NCBI GenBank assembly: GCA_012797975.1 | Contig: JAAZOD010000009.1 | Span: 62,001 to 126,000 of the forward strand | Direction: 5' to 3' | Source of the DNA: Pelolinea sp. | Lineage (GTDB): Bacteria; Chloroflexota; Anaerolineae; Anaerolineales; Anaerolineaceae | DNA: 64,000 bases | Shown here: one piece after another, positions 33,519 through 43,020 of the stretch | How positions within the stretch are numbered: position 1 is the first letter of the stretch | How the letters are laid out: each line of letters begins with the position of its first letter | Program-made: the position numbers and the translations under genes | The notes under the pieces: model-generated | Database searches by the model: none | Seen by the model: only the letters and a program-made list of their open reading frames with translations | Told to the model about the DNA's origin: nothing

Positions 33519-34283
33519 TTAGATTTTTATTTCCAGTGTTACTGGACAATGATCAGATCCGAGGACCTCATCATGGATGGTCACATCTACAATCTTTTCT
33601 TCCAGTGATGAAGAAACTAGGTAATAATCCAACCGCCAGCCAATATTTCGCTCTCTGGCTTTAAAACGATAGGTCCACCACGAATATTGTACTTTATCAG
33701 GATGACGTTTGCGAAATATGTCAATCAGGTCATGCTCAAGATAATGGTCAATCCATACCCTTTCTTCGGGCAAGAAACCGGTATTTTTCTCGTTTTCTTT
33801 GGGATTCTTGAGATCTATTTCGCGATGTGCGGTATTGAAATCACCAGTAATGATGACCTGTTTCCCTTCACCGTGCAGCGCATCGCAAATCTTCAGCAGT
33901 TCTGCGTAAAAATCCAACTTGAAAGGAACCCGTTCATTTTCCTGGCCGCCATTCGGGAAATAGCTATTGAAAAGTTCAAAACCAGGATAACTGGTTCGAA
34001 TCACACGGCCTTCAATATCGAAGCGCTCAATGCCCAGTCCTTTGATTATTTTTAACGGTTCATTCTTATAAAAAGTGGCAACACCGCTATATCCCGGCCG
34101 CTGGGCAGCATTCCAGATTACGGTGTATCCGAGATCGAGGATCGGTGCTAAATTCACTTGTTCAAGAGTTGCTTTCACTTCCTGCAGGCAAAGAACATCC
34201 GGTTGATATTCCCCTACCCAAATCGCAATATCTTTCTGAAGAGCTGCACGAATTCCGTTTATATTCCAGGTTGTAATTTTCAT
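33519..34283 (-). CDS. xth: Exodeoxyribonuclease III / AP endonuclease (254 aa)
   Basis: A base-excision repair nuclease. The active-site signatures are all present: TTWNINGIRAAL, LCLQEVKA, TGDFNTAHREIDL, WWTYRFKARERNIGWRLDY and SDHCPVTLEI. I place the start at ATG 34283 (MKITTW), three codons inside the longest frame. It is divergent from the LysM/M23 gene with a 75-nt spacer. Confidence 0.95.
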   Translation of the reverse strand: MKITTWNINGIRAALQKDIAIWVGEYQPDVLCLQEVKATLEQVNLAPILDLGYTVIWNAAQRPGYSGVATFYKNEPLKIIKGLGIERFDIEGRVIRTSYPGFELFNSYFPNGGQENERVPFKLDFYAELLKICDALHGEGKQVIITGDFNTAHREIDLKNPKENEKNTGFLPEERVWIDHYLEHDLIDIFRKRHPDKVQYSWWTYRFKARERNIGWRLDYYLVSSSLEEKIVDVTIHDEVLGSDHCPVTLEIKI

Positions 34284-34358
34284 TGTCACCACTGTGGTAA
34301 ACTTAATCGGCTTCTACTGGTTAATTGTAGCAGATTGGAAGCACATACACAAAACATT

Positions 34359-35774
34359 ATGCGAAGAAAAATTGTTTATTCCATTCTGATCTCATTTCTT
34401 TTACTATCACTCAACGTAAAAACAAGTTTTGCACAGGATAATCCTAATTACCCGATCTATATTGTGCAATCCGGTGAAACACTCACATCCATTGCAGAAA
34501 AATTCAATACAACAGTGGCTGAGATCATCAATATCAACGGCATTGTCAATGAAAATCTGATTACAGAAGGCACAGAACTGTATATTCCCGGACTGGAAGG
34601 AATTACCGGGCGTTTGGTCACTCATGCAATTAATATCGGAGAGACCCTCGAAGACCTATCGATCGAAAATTCCATCCCATTGGAAACACTTCTCTCTATA
34701 AATAAAATCACCTCGCCAAATGAGATTTACGTGGGCACCAATATCATTCTCCCCGTGCCTGACGAAACATCCGCTTTATCCATTGCTCATACCATGCAAA
34801 CTCAGGATACCATGCTTGAAAATGCAGTTCGCGAACAAATGAATCCCTGGGTTCTGCTTCTACAGAATGATCTACGCACTGGCAACATCCTGATCCCCAA
34901 TTCACCCATTTTTGCCAAGATCAATACCGACCAGGCGGTGAGCAAGATTTCTCCGTTCATCCGCATGGTTGAAATATCTCCACTTCCTCTGGTTCAAGGA
35001 ACAACGATTGTGATCAATGTGGAAACAACAGAGCCGCTTGATTTAACAGGTATTGTAGGGGACCATACCCTGCACTTCTTCCCCTACAGCGATCAACCCA
35101 ACCGTTATTATGCCATACAGGGAATCCACGCGATGGCTGAGCCGGGATTGATAACTTTCAACCTGACCGGCAGTTCTCAGGGAACCGTTATTTTTTCCTA
35201 TGACCAAATGCTTCTGCAAGAAGCTGGCACTTTCATTCAAGACCCTCCCCTTTATGTTCAGGATGAAACGGTGGATCCTGCGATTACTGGCCCGGAAGAA
35301 GATCTGGTGCGCTCGTATACCACACAGGTATCTTCGGAAAAATACTGGCAGGGAGCTTTTCGATATCCGGTGGATGGTTCTGTGGAGGATGATACGATCG
35401 GATTCATGTCCACTTATGGTAATCGCCGATCGTATAATGGCAGTGATTATACTTATTTCCATACCGGGTTGGATTTTGGTGTCTATACGAACAGTTTGAA
35501 CATTTATGCGGCGGAAGCTGGAGTGGTCGTTTATACCGGTTCCCTGACTGTTCGAGGAAATGCGACTTTTATTGATCACGGCCAAGGTGTTTTCAGCGGT
35601 TATTTCCATCAAGCTCAGATCTTGGTGAATGTGGGCGACCATGTTGAAAAAGGGCAATTGATCGGACAAATCGGCTCCACCGGCCGTGTTACCGGGCCGC
35701 ATCTGCATTGGGAAATTTGGGTGAATGGCGTGCAGGTAAATCCGGTGGACTGGGTTTTAAATACATACCCATAA
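34359..35774 (+). CDS. Secreted LysM-domain M23 peptidase (471 aa)
   Basis: A cell-wall-associated endopeptidase. An N-terminal signal peptide (RRKIVYSILISFLLLSLNV, cleaved near FAQ) is followed by two LysM modules (YIVQSGETLTSIAEKFNTTV, and a second from about residue 88), a beta-rich middle region of about 200 residues without a clear match, and a C-terminal M23 (LytM) domain with HTGLDFGV, a central GNATFIDHG and GPHLHWEIWVNG. The ATG at 34359 gives the signal peptide directly; longer frames run into the xth gene. Confidence 0.92.
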   Translation: MRRKIVYSILISFLLLSLNVKTSFAQDNPNYPIYIVQSGETLTSIAEKFNTTVAEIININGIVNENLITEGTELYIPGLEGITGRLVTHAINIGETLEDLSIENSIPLETLLSINKITSPNEIYVGTNIILPVPDETSALSIAHTMQTQDTMLENAVREQMNPWVLLLQNDLRTGNILIPNSPIFAKINTDQAVSKISPFIRMVEISPLPLVQGTTIVINVETTEPLDLTGIVGDHTLHFFPYSDQPNRYYAIQGIHAMAEPGLITFNLTGSSQGTVIFSYDQMLLQEAGTFIQDPPLYVQDETVDPAITGPEEDLVRSYTTQVSSEKYWQGAFRYPVDGSVEDDTIGFMSTYGNRRSYNGSDYTYFHTGLDFGVYTNSLNIYAAEAGVVVYTGSLTVRGNATFIDHGQGVFSGYFHQAQILVNVGDHVEKGQLIGQIGSTGRVTGPHLHWEIWVNGVQVNPVDWVLNTYP

Positions 35775-35829: not shown

Positions 35830-37398
35830 ATGGTTCTATCCAATACCTCAACCAAAAATGTGTGGGAAGATTTTCAACTGGAAGATGCTGATATAGAGTT
35901 TATTTATACCTACCTTTTGGAAAAAGAAATTCCTCTCCCCGCATCCGATCTGCTGGAAGCAATCATCGTCAATCGTATCAAGAAAGAAAAAGAAACAATT
36001 CTCAAGAAAACGCGCGGGAAAGGCAAGATCTTTTTGCCCAAAGACTCCTATGAGCTGAAGGATGAACTTGTTTTTCCTGCCTTTGGATGGAAGAATGGGA
36101 AAGTCATTGAAGTCCGCAATGGTTTCAATCCTGATTTTTCCAGTTTCAAGGTCATAAAGGTTCAATTTGATGATGGTGAAACAAAGGAACTGGCATGTGA
36201 ACTGGCAGACCATAGCTTGAATACCCCCGTCGACTTGATTGGTGATGATCCTTCCTTCGATAAAGAAAAAGTGCTTGCCGAACATCAAGAGGAATTTCTC
36301 GAATGTATTCAAGCGACACTGTCCAAGAACAAGGATCTTGTTCAAATTGCTGGCGCTTGGTTTCCGAGAGCTTTGTTAGTTGACATCAATGGTGGGTATC
36401 TAAACCTCATTGAAGCAATCCTTGAAGAGGCCAAAGGTGGCCCAATGACCACCAAAGATTTGATGCAGCAGATCGAACTAAATACCATCGAGAACCAGAA
36501 ACTGGCTGAATTTTCCTTGAATTTGGCGCTGCAGGAAGACGATCGATATGACGAAGTGGGTCCCTCGGGCGAAGTTCTCTGGTATTTACGCTCTATGGAA
36601 CCGGACGATGTACGAAAAGTGCCGGTTTATTTGCAGTATAAGGGAAATCCAGTCGAGAATCCGGAAACAAGTCAGTATTTGTCGCTCTTCGAAGGCACCC
36701 TTGCAGATGAATTGGAAGAAAATGAGCCAAAAACTTGTGACCTGTCTGTCACCATCAGTCTGCTTTTCCCTCATTGGCGTTCCGGAACCCTCCCCTTCTC
36801 CAATTCGCTTTCCCATATTTTCCCCACCGCATTGGAATCGCCACGTGTCCGCTTTACCTTTCGAGATGAAGAAACGGGTGAAAGTTTCAATGGCTGGGTA
36901 ATTCGAAAACAGCGCTATGTGTATGGATTGAAGGATTGGTACGAGAAGAAAGGCATCATCCCCGGCAGTTTAATTAGTGTGCAAAAAGGCACAAAACCCG
37001 GCGAAATTCTGATCAAAAGCGAGAGAAGCCGCCAAAACAAGGAATGGGTCAAAACAGTGCTGGTTGGAGCGGATAAAGGGATCGTTTTTGCCATGCTCAA
37101 GCATCCCATCGAAGTGAATTTCAATGAACGCATGTCCATTGCCATTCCTGATGTTGAAGCCGTAGATGCGGTGTGGAAAGAACGAGAAAAACTAAACCCT
37201 GAAAAGATTTTCCTGCAGATTGGTCGAGAATTGGCTAAATTGAATCCACAGGGTCACATTCATGCTCAAGAAATGTATGCAGCGGTAAATGTCATTTTCC
37301 GCTGTCCGCCTTCTCCGGTTTTGAATTTTCTGCTCACCAGCCCTGCCATCCAGCATTTGGGCGATCTGTATTTTCACCTCAAAGAAGGAGAAGGATAA
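35830..37398 (+). CDS. Uncharacterised protein (522 aa), first of a two-gene unit
   Basis: I do not recognise a family. The protein is soluble, acidic and has no signal peptide or membrane helix. Residues about 50-130 form a small beta-rich module (VIKVQFDDGETKELACELAD) like a chromo- or KOW-type barrel. Around 190-260 lies a helical stretch (NLIEAILEEAKGGPMTTKDL) resembling a HARE-HTH winged helix, which would suggest nucleic-acid contact. The C-terminal half is mixed alpha/beta. It has its own -10 element and is followed after 6 nt by the 144-aa gene, with which it probably works. Likely lineage-restricted. Confidence 0.7.
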   Translation: MVLSNTSTKNVWEDFQLEDADIEFIYTYLLEKEIPLPASDLLEAIIVNRIKKEKETILKKTRGKGKIFLPKDSYELKDELVFPAFGWKNGKVIEVRNGFNPDFSSFKVIKVQFDDGETKELACELADHSLNTPVDLIGDDPSFDKEKVLAEHQEEFLECIQATLSKNKDLVQIAGAWFPRALLVDINGGYLNLIEAILEEAKGGPMTTKDLMQQIELNTIENQKLAEFSLNLALQEDDRYDEVGPSGEVLWYLRSMEPDDVRKVPVYLQYKGNPVENPETSQYLSLFEGTLADELEENEPKTCDLSVTISLLFPHWRSGTLPFSNSLSHIFPTALESPRVRFTFRDEETGESFNGWVIRKQRYVYGLKDWYEKKGIIPGSLISVQKGTKPGEILIKSERSRQNKEWVKTVLVGADKGIVFAMLKHPIEVNFNERMSIAIPDVEAVDAVWKEREKLNPEKIFLQIGRELAKLNPQGHIHAQEMYAAVNVIFRCPPSPVLNFLLTSPAIQHLGDLYFHLKEGEG

Positions 37399-37404
37399 TT
37401 CTTT

Positions 37405-37839
37405 ATGAACCCTGCCGGTCACTTCAGTTTAGTCAAACCCACCCTTGAAACGCCGTTTCATATTGATTTTGATTGGTGGATCGAACATGATGCGAACTGG
37501 AGAGTTTTCTTGCTTGATTTTCTGTGCGATGAACATCGCGCACTCTATGCAGAAAAAGATCAGAATATCCAAATTGATTCCATTGACCCGCAAACTGCCG
37601 AAGTGAAGCGTGTGGATGGCTTGTTGAACACCCTGGTGGAACATTGCGCACAGCAGGAAGGTTTCATTTCCAAAAATACAACGCTGGTCAATATGATTTT
37701 TAAAATATTTCTTGCCAATGGCAATAAACCTTTGAATGCTAACCAACTGGCCGAATTAACAGAAAAGCCTGCCGCAACCATCCTACGAACCTTTTCAGGA
37801 GCCCAAATCTTTAAAGGTATCCGTCCTTTGCAGGAATAA
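37405..37839 (+). CDS. Uncharacterised protein (144 aa), second of a two-gene unit
   Basis: Family not recognised. The N-terminal half is rich in aromatic and acidic residues (FHIDFDWWIEHDANWRVFL). The C-terminal half reads like a small helix-turn-helix (NANQLAELTEKPAATILRTF) with a closing beta turn, hinting at DNA or RNA contact. Spacing of 6 nt after the 522-aa gene suggests co-translation. The tRNA-Arg gene starts 39 nt further on. Confidence 0.65.
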   Translation: MNPAGHFSLVKPTLETPFHIDFDWWIEHDANWRVFLLDFLCDEHRALYAEKDQNIQIDSIDPQTAEVKRVDGLLNTLVEHCAQQEGFISKNTTLVNMIFKIFLANGNKPLNANQLAELTEKPAATILRTFSGAQIFKGIRPLQE

Positions 37840-37979: not shown

Positions 37980-38963
37980 CTATCTTTTATAAAGAAGCCA
38001 AAGACTGGCAATATAGATAAGAACCAGTGCAATGGCATCCACTTCAAAAAGAACAATGCGTTTTTCTAGTTTCGCGAGATTCCCGATCAATCCCATTCCG
38101 GTCATCAATAAGCCGGCCATTCCGATTATCAGAAAACTCGGATCGATGGATGACAGAAAGTTTCCCTGTGTATAGAAAAGGTCCGTTAAACCCAGTGCAA
38201 AAACATTGAACATATTACTGCCAAAAAGATTGCCAATGGCCATATCGTCTGCCCCAATGCGAACGGCAACGATCGCCGTCACCAATTCAGGCAAGGATGT
38301 GACCAGAGCGACCAGTACGGTACCTATAAAAGTCGCCCCCAAACCGGTTATATCGGCAATCTGATTCGCGCTTCTTACCATAAAGGGATTGATCAACACC
38401 AAGAGGCCAGCGGCAATGAAAAAACCTGCCAATCCTCTCCAAAGGGTCGGCGTTCCTTGCGGTATCTCTTTCTTGGTAGAAAAGCCGGATCCATGGGATG
38501 AATTTTTTTCAATCAATCGTACACCGATAAAATAACAAAGAATGATGAGCAAACTATCCAGTCCGATCCAACCGAGTTGAACAGGTATTTTCACCATCAT
38601 GAAATAAACAGCCAAACCAATCAGGAAAACGGAAATGCTGCCCGTTAGCGCATGTTTGAAAGCCGCTTTACGCAAAATACGACGCCTACAATGAATCATA
38701 TCGATCACTGCCAGAATGAGCATATTGATAGTATTGCTTCCAAACAGGTTTCCTGCAGCGAGATTGGGCGTTCCTTGCTTGAGAGCGTTGATGGAGGTGA
38801 GAACCTCTGGCAGAGAAGTGGCTCCGGCCAACAACAATACACCGATGAACATCCCACTTAATCCGGTGCGAATAGCGATAATGTCGCCATATTTGGCTAG
38901 TTGTGTTGCGGCCAGTGTGATCAATATTGCAGAGAGGACAAATTCAACCCAAACCATGCTCAT
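37980..38963 (-). CDS. Calcium/sodium:cation antiporter, YrbG type (327 aa)
   Basis: A membrane exchanger of the CaCA superfamily. The two inverted alpha-repeats are plain: GATSLPEVLTSINAL with GNLFGSNTINM, and TSLPELVTAIVAVR with GNLFGSNMFNV. About ten hydrophobic segments cover the protein. The start overlaps the stop of the preceding small gene (ATGA, 4 nt), so the two are translationally coupled and probably functionally linked. The transported ion pair is not certain from sequence. Confidence 0.92.
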   Translation of the reverse strand: MSMVWVEFVLSAILITLAATQLAKYGDIIAIRTGLSGMFIGVLLLAGATSLPEVLTSINALKQGTPNLAAGNLFGSNTINMLILAVIDMIHCRRRILRKAAFKHALTGSISVFLIGLAVYFMMVKIPVQLGWIGLDSLLIILCYFIGVRLIEKNSSHGSGFSTKKEIPQGTPTLWRGLAGFFIAAGLLVLINPFMVRSANQIADITGLGATFIGTVLVALVTSLPELVTAIVAVRIGADDMAIGNLFGSNMFNVFALGLTDLFYTQGNFLSSIDPSFLIIGMAGLLMTGMGLIGNLAKLEKRIVLFEVDAIALVLIYIASLWLLYKR

Positions 38964-39310
38964 TTCCTCATTTCAAAGTGGGATCGTACGCCTTTGGTTG
39001 CCATTAAGGGCCAGGCAGAAAAAACTCCAGTATTGGGCGCGTCAAGATCTCCAACCACACTCTCGGCAGCTTCCAAACATTTTTCAATCATTCCTTTGTC
39101 AAGTACGATGGTAAAAAGAGTGATATTGCCTATTTCTTCAGTTACTCCTTCCCCACTGTAATTAAAACGCATGGGGATCCGTTGCTGTTGACGGCGGTGT
39201 AATCCACTCGATTCGATAATGGTCGCTCCGGTTACCCCCAGTTCTGACCATTTTTCAAGCACTTCATCTAGATAATCGACATTATCCAAAACGAACATCA
39301 CCATAAACAT
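38960..39310 (-). CDS. Small PII-like protein coupled to the cation exchanger (116 aa)
   Basis: No named family recognised with certainty. The order of strands and helices, starting MFMVMFVLDNVDYLDEVLEK and then LGVTGATIIESSGL, resembles the ferredoxin-like fold of PII and CutA-type signalling proteins. The C-terminus carries TLFTIVLDKGMIEKCLEAAE and ends TKGVRSHFEMRK. The ATG at 39310 follows a perfect AAGGAGG; the longer frame lacks one. Translational coupling to the exchanger suggests it senses a ligand and adjusts transport, as PII-like proteins do beside other transporters. Confidence 0.65.
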   Translation of the reverse strand: MFMVMFVLDNVDYLDEVLEKWSELGVTGATIIESSGLHRRQQQRIPMRFNYSGEGVTEEIGNITLFTIVLDKGMIEKCLEAAESVVGDLDAPNTGVFSAWPLMATKGVRSHFEMRK

Positions 39311-39474
39311 TGGGTTATCCTCCTTATAATTGAATTCTGCTTGGACACGTAACGATATAATGGGCGGAAATACAAGAAGTTTCAGAATCAGGTGAACGAT
39401 GAAAAGAACCTGAATTATGCCATCGACAGACACTGATGGACAATATTATTTTATCAGGTTTCAAAAAATAAATG

Positions 39475-39529: not shown

Positions 39530-41053
39530 TTAATTATATTTTTCGCGAATCTCAGCGCTGACATTATCAAGGATCATGACCGTGATCGTGATAAACCATA
39601 CCGCAATACCGGCAGATTTATAATCCAACAATCGGATCCATTGCTGCAGCAAGAAGCCGATGCCTCCGCCACCCACAAAACCGATTACAGTGGACATGCG
39701 GATGTTGATATCCCAGCGATAAATGGTGAAAGAAATAAATGGCGGAACAATTTGTGGAATTACGGCATATACGATGGTCTGGAACCAGTTAGCTCCGGTC
39801 GCTTGAACGGCTTCGATGGGCCCTTGGTCGATTCCCTCGATCGCTTCTGAATACATCTTTGCCAGTGCTGCAATAGAATGCAGGGTCAGTGCTAAAATAC
39901 CAGCAAATGGGCCCAATCCAACGATAATGGTGGCAATGATTGCCCAGATCAGGGGCTCGATCGAACGAACGATGTTCAGCACCGTTCGAACAAAGTAATA
40001 GATGGATTTGGTAAGGAAGTTCTGTGACATCAAATTCCTTGCCGCAAGGAAGCTGATTGGAATAGCCAGGATCACGCCGAACAGGGTTGCCATCATGCCA
40101 ATGATGATGGTTTCGATCATTTTTTCAACGGAGAGGGTCAGTTCTTCACTTAACTGTGCTTTTCCAACGCTTTGAACCTGCCTGCCCTGTACTTCCCAGA
40201 TTTTTGGTCCTTCCCCTGCCACCGGCGGGATCAAGCGGTATGGCATAATCACTTTAATTTCAAAATCGCCATTTGCATCGGGCATGACTTTCACATATTC
40301 CCCACTCTGTCGCTGCCTGAATTCATTCCCGATTGGATCACTCCACCAAATTTCAACCTCCTGCCCGGGGTTGAAATTACCGCCTATCAGGGTAAACTCT
40401 GTTCCCGCTGTACCGTCGGATTCGGTTGGATTACCACAGGTGGGGCTGGTGACAAGATATGGTTCGTCTTCCTTGATTTCCCCTGTTGGATATTCCACAT
40501 CAGTGCAGGGGGATTGCACGGTTGTGCTGATAATCAAGATCTCTTCAGGACGTGTGACCGCTTTTTCCCATGGCCACAGCAACCTCCCCATGGTTGGGAG
40601 CGCTTCTCCTGCCTGCGAGAAAAATTCACCCATATTAATATCGCCGATCTGCCAGCCAAGCAGGAAAAAAACCGCCAGGATGAAAAATACCAAACCTGAA
40701 CCATAAGCTCGGCTTCCTTTGTTGCTCTTTCGAGCGGTAAGGTAAGCATCAAGGATGATCCAAAGATACAGGACTATTAACAGGATGAAAACAAAACGCA
40801 AAATCGGTGAAAATTGGAAAGCTTTTAATATGATTGTTTTTATATCGGTATAGCGTCTACCTTCAAGATAGATTCGCCATGCCAGCAATCCGGCAATGGT
40901 AACAAAACTGAGTAGGATAGTTAACCCTCGTTTGAATGCACGTGCCAGCATTTGTCCCAAACCGGGAATAATCGCGGAGAGGATAGAAGCGATAATTGGT
41001 GGTACAAGACTTGGTTTCTGTGGTTCTTTCTGTGCGGATTGTTTTTTTGCCAT
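39530..41053 (-). CDS. phnE: Phosphonate-type ABC permease with an extra N-terminal membrane and Ig-like domain (507 aa)
   Basis: The C-terminal roughly 230 residues are a standard PhnE permease (EKMIETIIIGMMATLFGVIL, PISFLAARNL, and SEAIEGIDQGPIEAVQATG as the ATPase-coupling loop). The first roughly 145 residues add about four hydrophobic segments, the first with IPGLGQMLARAFKRG as in DUF5683-type proteins. Residues 145-275 form a beta-rich, Cys-containing extracytoplasmic domain (IGGNFNPGQEVEIWW) resembling an IPT/TIG fold. PhnE is normally about 260-280 aa, so this is nearly double. GGAGGG precedes the ATG, 10 nt after phnC. The added domain might receive the binding protein. Confidence 0.88.
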   Translation of the reverse strand: MAKKQSAQKEPQKPSLVPPIIASILSAIIPGLGQMLARAFKRGLTILLSFVTIAGLLAWRIYLEGRRYTDIKTIILKAFQFSPILRFVFILLIVLYLWIILDAYLTARKSNKGSRAYGSGLVFFILAVFFLLGWQIGDINMGEFFSQAGEALPTMGRLLWPWEKAVTRPEEILIISTTVQSPCTDVEYPTGEIKEDEPYLVTSPTCGNPTESDGTAGTEFTLIGGNFNPGQEVEIWWSDPIGNEFRQRQSGEYVKVMPDANGDFEIKVIMPYRLIPPVAGEGPKIWEVQGRQVQSVGKAQLSEELTLSVEKMIETIIIGMMATLFGVILAIPISFLAARNLMSQNFLTKSIYYFVRTVLNIVRSIEPLIWAIIATIIVGLGPFAGILALTLHSIAALAKMYSEAIEGIDQGPIEAVQATGANWFQTIVYAVIPQIVPPFISFTIYRWDINIRMSTVIGFVGGGGIGFLLQQWIRLLDYKSAGIAVWFITITVMILDNVSAEIREKYN

Positions 41054-41063
41054 AAATCCCTCC

Positions 41064-41855
41064 TTATCCTTCCTTCACCGTACCGATCAGGTTGCCGCCA
41101 ATTCGCTCCGCTTCTTCCCCGTAGATTTCTTTGAACTCTTCATCGGTCAATTTCATGATCTGGGCCTTGGTCCCTTCATAGACGATTTCACCCAATCGCA
41201 AACCGATCACTCTGGAAGCATACCGCTGGACCAAATCAAGGTAGTGCAAACTGCAAATGATAGTGATCTTGTCTTCTTGGTTCAACCTTTCCAGATTGGA
41301 AAGAATGGAATGTGCCAGCACCGGATCGAGACTGGCAACCGGTTCGTCGGCCAGGATCATTTTGGGATCCTGCATCAATGCTCGGGCTATTCCTACGCGC
41401 TGTTGTTGACCGCCGCTCAGTTCATCCGCTCTTTTGTTCACCTGATCCTGAATATTCAAACGTTCGATGGTCTTTTTTGCCTTTTGTTGATCTTCCACGG
41501 AGAATTTCCCTATCATGCTCGGCAGTGTCTTTGCGTACCCGAGACGTCCAGACATGACATTCTTCAGGACGGATGATCGTTTCACAAGGTTAAAATGCTG
41601 AAAGATCATTCCGATTTCACGTCGATACTGTCTCAGTTCCTCCCCTTTCAAAGGGGTTACGTCCACACCGTTCCAAATCACCTGTCCTTCAGTTGGTTCG
41701 ATCAACCGGTTAATGCACCGCAGCAGTGTCGATTTTCCGGAGCCGCTGAGACCAATGATGACAAGAAATTCTCCGTCAGGAACTGTAAAACTCACATTTT
41801 TCAATGCGACAGTTCCATCATCATAAATCTTGGTAAGATTCTTGATTTCAAGCAT
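41064..41855 (-). CDS. phnC: Phosphonate-type ABC transporter ATP-binding protein (263 aa)
   Basis: The energising subunit of the importer. Walker A GLSGSGKSTLLRC, Q-loop region IGMIFQHFNLVKRSSVLKN, signature LSGGQQQRVGIARAL, Walker B MILADEPVASLDP and the switch His in CSLHYLDLVQRYA are all in place, and the family-typical KRSSVLKNVMSGRLG is present. It follows phnD after a 119-nt gap holding a terminator hairpin, and precedes phnE by 10 nt. Substrate could be phosphonate, phosphite or a related oxyanion; no C-P lyase genes are nearby. Confidence 0.93.
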   Translation of the reverse strand: MLEIKNLTKIYDDGTVALKNVSFTVPDGEFLVIIGLSGSGKSTLLRCINRLIEPTEGQVIWNGVDVTPLKGEELRQYRREIGMIFQHFNLVKRSSVLKNVMSGRLGYAKTLPSMIGKFSVEDQQKAKKTIERLNIQDQVNKRADELSGGQQQRVGIARALMQDPKMILADEPVASLDPVLAHSILSNLERLNQEDKITIICSLHYLDLVQRYASRVIGLRLGEIVYEGTKAQIMKLTDEEFKEIYGEEAERIGGNLIGTVKEG

Positions 41856-41974: not shown

Positions 41975-42895
41975 CTATTCTGCGGTCAGTGAAGCGTAAT
42001 CTACACCCGCAGCATCCAGGATCTGGCGGAAGGCATCATAGAACTCATCACCGTGCTCTTCCATGCCAGTATATTGATATGCTTCGTCCATGGCTGCAGC
42101 ACCTTCTTCGGTTTCGAAGAGATGCAAGAACTCAGCCACCAGGGTAGCTTTGAGATCAGCAGGGAAATCTGGGCGGAATTGGAAGCCATCATTCGGGATA
42201 TCAGGTTCCAGGGCGATGACTTTGGTCTTGTCCATGATATCAGGATAGGTTTCCTCTACCGTGCTGCGCGCATCCACATAAGTGGTTCCGAAATCGCAAT
42301 CGCCATTGTAAACTGCTGCAGCAACTGCATCATGTGAACCAGCATCCACGATACCGGCCAGGTCTTTGTCAGGATCAATTCCAGCAGCCTTCAGCATGAT
42401 GGATGGAATGATCCAACCACTTGCACTGGTTTCATCAACACGGCAGTAGGTTTTTCCGACAAGATCCTCAATGGATTCAATGCCGCTGTCAGTGCGCACA
42501 ATGAATTGACCATTGTATGAGGCGCTTCCATAGCGGGTTGAGACCAACGCTGCATCTGCGCATCCTTTTTCATGTGCCAGGACGTATGCAAATGTTGCCA
42601 GAGAACCCATGTGTGCCTGTGGAGGATTGGCGCACAACGCTTCGATAGCTGCAGCATAACTGGTTGCGACATACGGTTTGATCACGATACCGGTGTCAGC
42701 GTATACCAGGTCGGCTACTGTTTCAAAACTGGCGAGTACGCGTTCTGTCTCCCCCGAGGGTACCGCAACAAAAATAACGGGGTTTTCTTCCGTGCCGATA
42801 TTTTCATACGGATCGGCTTTGGCCTTGCAGGCGGTTAATGCTAATGCGGCAATAATCAATAATGCACCAAAAGCGAATAACCTGTTTTTTGACAT
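41975..42895 (-). CDS. phnD: Phosphonate-type ABC substrate-binding lipoprotein (306 aa)
   Basis: Extracytoplasmic receptor of the importer. Starting at ATG 42895 (behind GAGGAGAG) gives a lipoprotein signal: LLIIAALALTAC with the lipobox Cys. The mature protein follows the PhnD family: VAVPSGETERVLASFETVAD, CANPPQAHMGSLATFAY, LVGKTYCRVDETSASGWIIP and VAAAVYNGDCDFGTTYVDA. As first gene of the operon with a terminator behind it, it should be made in excess over PhnC and PhnE. Exact ligand unknown. Confidence 0.92.
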   Translation of the reverse strand: MSKNRLFAFGALLIIAALALTACKAKADPYENIGTEENPVIFVAVPSGETERVLASFETVADLVYADTGIVIKPYVATSYAAAIEALCANPPQAHMGSLATFAYVLAHEKGCADAALVSTRYGSASYNGQFIVRTDSGIESIEDLVGKTYCRVDETSASGWIIPSIMLKAAGIDPDKDLAGIVDAGSHDAVAAAVYNGDCDFGTTYVDARSTVEETYPDIMDKTKVIALEPDIPNDGFQFRPDFPADLKATLVAEFLHLFETEEGAAAMDEAYQYTGMEEHGDEFYDAFRQILDAAGVDYASLTAE

Positions 42896-43020
42896 CTTTT
42901 CTCTCCTCTTTTTTTGGTTTATTTCAATACTATATATCACAACCATATTTTTTTCAAATGTTTATTCTTAAATAATCCGCTTTTCGTGGATTTGTCTGTA
43001 CAGGTGAATCGTTTTCTTCC

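Follow-up and report, generated by a model that had tools for sequence, protein, structure and literature searches.

Why should the permease of a phosphonate-type ABC importer be about twice as long as its family model, and what does the additional protein do? The question arises in the window, by which we mean the whole 64,000-nucleotide stretch of Pelolinea sp. DNA analysed here, where one uninterrupted reading frame at 39530-41053 on the minus strand runs from an ATG start and encodes a 507-aa product. Residues 303-506 of this product match positions 52-251 of TIGR01097, the 252-position NCBIfam model of PhnE (E 2.8e-75; 253.1 bits, exceeding the curated cut-off of 216.7 bits), and BPD_transp_1 is matched as well (E 5.3e-15). 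A single ORF of about twice the model's length bears out the sequence-only reading, which had described a PhnE of nearly double size, and the IPGLGQ motif and the GGNFNPGQEVEIWW stretch on which it had remarked are both found in the ORF. The features discussed below are the following.

39530..41053, minus strand: phnE-like permease gene, 507 codons and a stop (ORF list).
40718..41053, minus strand: N-terminal membrane module, residues 1-112, with three hydrophobic segments and IPGLGQ (hydropathy).
40562..40717, minus strand: PhnE's own first transmembrane helix and linker, residues 113-164 (hhalign).
40139..40561, minus strand: putative Ig-like domain, residues ~165-305, between helices 1 and 2 (model, position, charge).
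40505..40507, minus strand: Cys183, first of a conserved cysteine pair (module alignment).
40436..40438, minus strand: Cys206, second of the conserved cysteine pair (module alignment).
39533..40138, minus strand: permease core, helices 2 onward with an EAA-type loop (structure match to MetI).
41064..41855, minus strand: phnC ATPase gene, 263 aa (TIGR02315, E 9.3e-100).
41975..42895, minus strand: phnD-type substrate-binding lipoprotein gene (Phosphonate-bd, E 5.6e-49; TIGR01098, E 8.9e-51).

The genes phnC and phnD lie upstream of phnE in the operon. The start codon of phnD was picked by us, the ORF list beginning further upstream at 42946, and its product has by eye a signal peptide with an LTAC lipobox; it scores under the cut-off of TIGR03431, the PhnD model (135.5 vs 261.1 bits). 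The draft genome to which the window belongs (2,572,423 bases, 35 contigs) yielded no second match to the whole PhnE (E <= 0.001), to the Ig module (E <= 1) or to the N-terminal module (E <= 0.1). Near the operon, ORFs at 38960-39433 (minus strand), 35830-37398 (plus strand) and 37405-37839 (plus strand) have no Pfam match at E <= 0.001; our impression is that the first product may resemble a small PII-like protein. The ORF at 34158-35774 (plus strand) encodes a protein with LysM and Peptidase_M23 domains, likely a cell-wall hydrolase, whose listed TTG start is, by our impression, probably too far upstream.

Because the TIGR01097 match begins at model position 52, the first ~50 PhnE positions were sought upstream. 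When the helix-1 region (~113-168) of 120 enlarged proteins was compared with 16 canonical N-termini by hhalign, 50 columns aligned with Prob 96.2 and E 2.8e-9, the latter being the value of a one-to-one profile comparison, while the controls (four with the N-terminal module, one with helix 2) gave Prob 0.1-5.4 and E 0.007-0.56. The 120 were taken from 132 modules after exclusion of 7 named loci and of stretches that were too short, and they still contain fused forms without the Ig domain. The enlarged permease thus retains its native helix 1 and linker, with the beta-rich domain inserted between helices 1 and 2, and the extra sequence falls into an N-terminal piece of ~112 residues and a piece of ~140 residues between the two helices. 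The earlier description of about 275 extra residues ahead of the core was right in that the extra material is real, but residues 113-164 are native helix 1 and linker, and the view that all the extra sequence precedes the core was rejected on this profile-profile comparison. Pro161 of the linker is kept in 123 of the 132 upstream modules; from there to Thr315 in helix 2 the median distance is 139 residues and the range 37-199, with Ig-less forms among the short cases, and the equivalent stretch of canonical PhnE is short by alignment, the automatic measure being approximate. The full-length model is weak (pLDDT 57) and its fold search is useful for the core only, which matches MetI (3tui_A) with Z 20.2 and 2.6 Å over 193 residues; MetI is also found by phmmer at E ~1e-8.

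The models predict strands ahead of the core, in agreement with the beta-rich region proposed there. AlphaFold2 modelled the inserted domain (four sequences) as a beta-sandwich of seven strands with pLDDT 72 and pTM 0.67, and VIA-align 2 placed neocarzinostatin-type sandwiches first (Z 6.3, 84-86 residues, 2.8-3.0 Å), where a Z under 8 may mean merely a common arrangement. A profile of 50 relatives, for which 15 loci were omitted, length limits were set and the 100 fragments that remained were halved by taking every second one, weakly matched two kinds of PDB entry, the CD276 Ig domain (E 5e-5) and, less well, macromomycin (E 0.006). Pfam scans of 50 members gave best E values of 0.003-0.1, with one or two members each for CarboxypepD_reg, MG2, TIG, Neocarzinostat and ig, and the first ten Foldseek rows for the Ig model were SPOP MATH domains at rmsd 6.6-13.3 Å, which we judged uninformative. 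"Ig-like beta-sandwich" thus seems a fair description of the modelled insert, at the level of the fold and not of a named family. Of 132 upstream modules, 112 carry both Cys183 and Cys206; at <80% identity the pair occurs in 95 of 115, and either denominator includes modules without an Ig domain. A disulfide between the two cysteines likely stabilises the domain. Asp259 and Gly262 are kept in 81% and 89% of 115 modules, respectively.

The insert has the same position in the Ig-bearing permeases that we read. The net charge is positive before helix 1 in 120 and after helix 2 in 126 of 135 proteins, the Ig domain itself is net negative in 126/135, and the 15 residues that follow helix 1 are only weakly biased, with 54 negative and 37 positive cases among the 135. 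We infer that the domain lies outside the membrane, because the positive-inside rule can be applied to the charged flanks of helices 1 and 2. The extracytoplasmic Ig-like domain claimed from the sequence is thus supported by the position between helices 1 and 2, the charge bias, the model and the Ig-type matches, although each single fold match is weak and the location is deduced.

Relatives of the enlarged permease come in several architectures. Type A proteins (~500-525 aa) consist of the N-terminal module, helix 1, the Ig domain and the core; type B is a pair of tandem genes (~455 and ~385 aa) with Ig in both and the N-terminal module in the first, and type B' one gene of ~385-400 aa that has Ig and lacks the N-terminal module. 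Type C comprises fused double permeases, either with two Ig domains (844-864 aa, e.g. L093, L117 and L120-L122), with one in half 1 only (L092 and L103, 763 and 787 aa), or with no recognisable Ig (L035-L040, L094 and L101); eight Ig-less fused permeases retain phnD and phnC. Type D proteins (~608 aa) have helix 1, Ig, helix 2, an insertion of ~230 residues with about six hydrophobic segments, and then the rest of the core. This insertion between helices 2 and 3 was seen in L041 (3527-5353), L044 and L053, and L042, L043, L045, L075 and L077-L080 probably share it, judging from split core matches or length. The ~608-aa relatives had been candidates for fused double permeases, an assignment rejected because L041, L044 and L053 show one core with the insertion of about six helices; the HMM count labels these forms "core2", and in the tree both core pieces were joined, except for L044, whose tree rows are unreliable owing to a long branch.

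A quick unrooted tree of 147 cores required 7 changes of the Ig/no-Ig label. Fused halves 1 and 2 fall into separate groups, and ten Ig-less fused halves 2 cluster together (SH-aLRT 100) within the Ig-bearing rows; of the 144 inner branches of this tree 50 are supported at <80%, and the placement of several long branches is uncertain. Because the Ig-less halves 2 nest in this way and the halves group separately, we read the series as a probable early gain of the Ig domain, duplication together with the domain, and later losses.

What would such a domain do in an importer? We propose that the first extracytoplasmic loop (helices 1-2) of a PhnE-family type-I importer has been expanded into an Ig-like domain of ~140 residues, which would stand above the permease and keep the lipid-anchored PhnD over the channel, and which may also inform the ATPase side that PhnD is loaded, as MalF-P2 does for MalE. 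That it is such a permease-borne docking and signalling domain for the lipoprotein PhnD is an argument by analogy, and we put its chances at about even; it is the leading explanation because its slot equals that of MalF-P2. The modelled core, residues 301-507, superposes on MalF 270-512 (3fh6_F, Z 12.5), as do residues 301-506 on 270-511 (9nxc_H, Z 14.9), and MalF-P2 comprises MalF residues 91-271 and contacts MalE (PMC3150292); the insert at 165-305 therefore occupies the MalF-P2 slot. The rows displayed for the Ig-domain model do not include MalF itself, an uninformative absence in ranked lists. At the class loci L085-L124 (n=40), phnC is recognisable at 39 loci and phnD at 28, contig ends having truncated some of the remainder, and several loci, L086, L088 and L104 among them, have a phnC-phnE pair with Ig and no recognisable phnD in the stretch fetched.

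We analysed covariation of evolutionary distances in 57 assembled operons, from which 6 of the ~608-aa type were removed to leave 51. The Ig and PhnD distances correlate with r 0.81, and the partial correlation given core and PhnC is 0.51 (0/2000 permutations as high), while that of Ig and core, which belong to the same chain, is 0.20 given PhnC and PhnD (6/2000 permutations as high). The signal is not exclusive, because the core-PhnD and Ig-PhnC partials are also positive (0.41 and 0.30). In the 25 operons of the window's subtype (495-530 aa), the Ig-PhnD partial is 0.19 raw (26/1000 permutations as high) and 0.14 by rank (68/1000), and the other raw partials with PhnD are 0.37 for helix 1 and linker, 0.28 for PhnC, 0.16 for the N-terminal module and -0.14 for the core. 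The 36 operons with an N-terminal module gave raw PhnD partials of 0.37 for Ig, 0.26 for the core, 0.25 for PhnC, 0.09 for helix 1 and linker and 0.06 for the N-terminal module; in the 26 operons outside the 495-530 aa type the values are 0.42 for helix 1 and linker, 0.32 for Ig, 0.25 for the core and 0.24 for PhnC. Distance covariation as a proof of docking was rejected, because within the subtype Ig (0.19) stays below helix 1 and linker (0.37). The covariation is suggestive over the 51 operons and weak and unspecific within the window's subtype; the docking site for the lipoprotein receptor that had been suggested is plausible from its slot. Charge complementarity between Ig and PhnD was tested and is absent, both being acidic (mean -10 and -26; negative in 56/57 operons for each), and the correlation of their charges across operons (r 0.76) is taken as a whole-proteome effect.

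The Ig copies might instead pack together or on the cell wall and so stiffen the complex, as a clamp for dimerisation or stability that leaves PhnD untouched. Tandem and some fused forms do have one Ig per half, the domain is missing from half 2 or from both halves in some fused chains, where the covalent link could substitute for it, and the Ig profile matches, more weakly, stretches of further ORFs in Chloroflexota, for which a role at the surface or wall may be guessed (168/251 genomes at E <= 0.01, most rows listed being weak, partial and in other ORFs). We nevertheless consider such a clamp rather unlikely: the single Ig of the 763- and 787-aa fused forms is unable to pair within one transporter, the 844-864 aa forms retain both Ig domains despite fusion, and over the 51 operons the Ig distances track PhnD more than the core.

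How common the enlarged form is had been raised together with the first description, and a survey shows it to be widespread in one class. The Ig module is matched at E <= 1e-12 in 140 of 298 sampled Anaerolineae genomes, and in 88/190 of the more complete ones at the same threshold. A class sample of the same size has a match to the PhnE model in 235/298 genomes at E <= 1e-10 and one over the cut-off in 140/298, a count separate from the identical one for the Ig module. In the phylum, 26 of 121 sampled genomes match PhnE at E <= 1e-30. The listing has 23 rows from other classes: 19 begin at model position 2-17, that of G488 begins at 91, its short frame being located at the end of a contig, and G524, G496 and G452 begin at 53-57; the Ig profile has matches adjoining these last three and also in G629, G580 and G643, in frames of 406-574 aa. 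The scope outside Chloroflexota was a plasmid collection and a Lachnospiraceae locus (L005); 1020 plasmid records match PhnE at E <= 1e-10 by tblastn, a method that may stop short of a divergent insert. The 1 record that covers >=80% of the query is from a Chloroflexota bacterium and corresponds to contig G027:C2.

Such figures bear on the idea that a surface Ig module was captured once and is merely tolerated, as a lineage-specific insertion with next to no function. Its high divergence (mean Kimura distance 1.74 vs 0.48 for the core) and the fused lineages without Ig would agree with this. Yet the module is found in nearly half of the class genomes sampled and in the same loop of the Ig-bearing permeases read, and the cysteine pair, Asp259 and Gly262 are conserved to the extent given above, which leaves a tolerated insertion improbable in our view.

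It had also been suggested that the domain is a second substrate-binding module, capturing phosphonate or phosphate directly. Other ABC importers have substrate-binding domains fused to the permease, and OpuA chains, which carry such a fused domain, are among the structure matches. The suggestion is not borne out: the domain is acidic in nearly all proteins (126/135), no Arg, Lys or His is among the positions conserved in >=50% of 100 domains, and what the model resembles are small sandwiches and MATH domains instead of a receptor with two lobes. Polar residues reach that level of conservation only at E171, N230, T258, D259 and S302 (window numbering), and the window itself has G230 and P258 at two of these positions. 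We hold a second binding site to be very improbable.

The weakest alternative, that mis-assembly fused two genes of a draft genome of 35 contigs, is practically excluded and was rejected, as was a frameshift artefact, because independent genomes share the arrangement. In the family, the whole PhnE is matched in 111/147 genomes at E <= 0.001, and 25/147, including the window's, match near full length. The 24 others dispose of the worry that an assembly error had joined two genes: in 22 the match is whole and in one frame, a layout also seen in relatives across the class, the G110 copy is interrupted by a contig end, and G022 distributes the N-terminal module and the remainder over overlapping frames of 176 and 410 aa, through a frameshift or as a genuine two-gene form. 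G022 is the sole case noticed among the relatives read where the N-terminal part has its own frame, and it is the one observation besides the draft state that would favour mis-assembly. CP069395 carries the enlarged gene in one frame, annotated only as "PhnE"; its contig is that of G027:C2, already counted among the 24, so it adds no evidence, as is also the case for L002, L003 and L004, taken as G117, G120 and G105.

The N-terminal piece is probably a separate membrane add-on, a helix bundle that stabilises the permease or binds a partner. A PG[LSAT]G[QH] motif occurs in 34/38 proteins with a long N-terminus, and among 22 members scanned at E <= 0.05, 18 are weakly DUF5683-like (best E 1.2e-6) and 17 weakly DUF6677-like (best E 1.7e-4), the window's own module being below the curated cut-offs of both. 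The module appears to be exchangeable, because an RDD-family domain precedes helix 1 in place of the IPGLGQ module in L100 (1915-3642) and L107 (2215-3855).

As to the substrate, the nearest solved relatives of the window's receptor are PtxB, HtxB and PhnD-type proteins (E 6e-16 to ~1e-9). PhnJ was not found in the window's own genome at E <= 0.01, and a link to C-P lyase was dropped on that ground. Two loci of the same genome encode Pst-type permeases, and each locus has one that exceeds the cut-off. Because PhnJ is missing at that threshold and Pst-type permeases occur at two loci, "phosphonate" would be a family label only for this importer.

Some receptors at related loci are themselves unusual. 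In L040 (182-2500) and L042 (6813-9251), SBP_bac_8 is followed by Phosphonate-bd in one chain according to Pfam, and the same fusion is seen in L039 (1-2310), judged from sequence only; these chains appear to be fusions of two unrelated substrate-binding proteins. A PhnD domain lies behind a Bmp (PnrA-like) domain in L113 (4974-6500; E 2.8e-28), the N-terminus being cut by the stretch fetched, and L096 (4669-5919) has by eye a LysM-like stretch before PhnD, with no Pfam LysM match at E <= 0.001.

In a limited search of open-licence PMC papers, we found no published description of an Ig-bearing PhnE and no papers that deal with PhnE together with Anaerolineae. The window's protein is a variant of a known permease, widespread in one class and more than a simple fusion, and the "PhnE" annotation in Anaerolineae can conceal a domain that the standard model splits or ignores. 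That Anaerolineae independently evolved a receptor-holding domain of the MalF-P2 kind, and that the architecture series shows how one copy can suffice and then be lost, is a tentative reading to which we give somewhat less than an even chance. If it is true, the series offers a natural experiment on the contribution of an extracytoplasmic docking domain to the work of a type-I ABC importer. The textbook case of a binding protein handled by a domain of the permease is MalF-P2; another, apparently independent one in that loop of a distant permease, with its duplications and losses across one class, would permit comparative tests of tethering against the signalling of occupancy.

Compared with known systems, the window's protein is closest to PhnE (TIGR01097), to which it is tied by a core (303-506) over the cut-off, the phnC/phnD operon and the native first helix; it differs from canonical PhnE in the Ig-like insert of the helix 1-2 loop and in the N-terminal three-helix module, the insert being absent from the canonical PhnE copies read from other Chloroflexota classes and Lachnospiraceae (L005). 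MetI is the best solved match of the core, but its chain of 217 residues is without a comparable insertion. For the insert, neocarzinostatin, macromomycin and other Ig-like sandwiches provide the best VIA-align rows and the weak profile matches, although nothing points to a ligand cleft in the window's domain. The likeness to MalF with its P2 lies in a folded domain directly before the equivalent core helix. It is a likeness of slot, homology not being claimed, and the MalF core is only remotely related to that of the window. MalF has two helices upstream of the P2 loop, compared with three further helices upstream of the loop in the window's PhnE. MalF pairs with a separate MalG, whereas the window shows one permease gene and a homodimer is presumed; the fused permeases L092 and L103, with Ig in half 1 only, parallel the MalF/MalG asymmetry.
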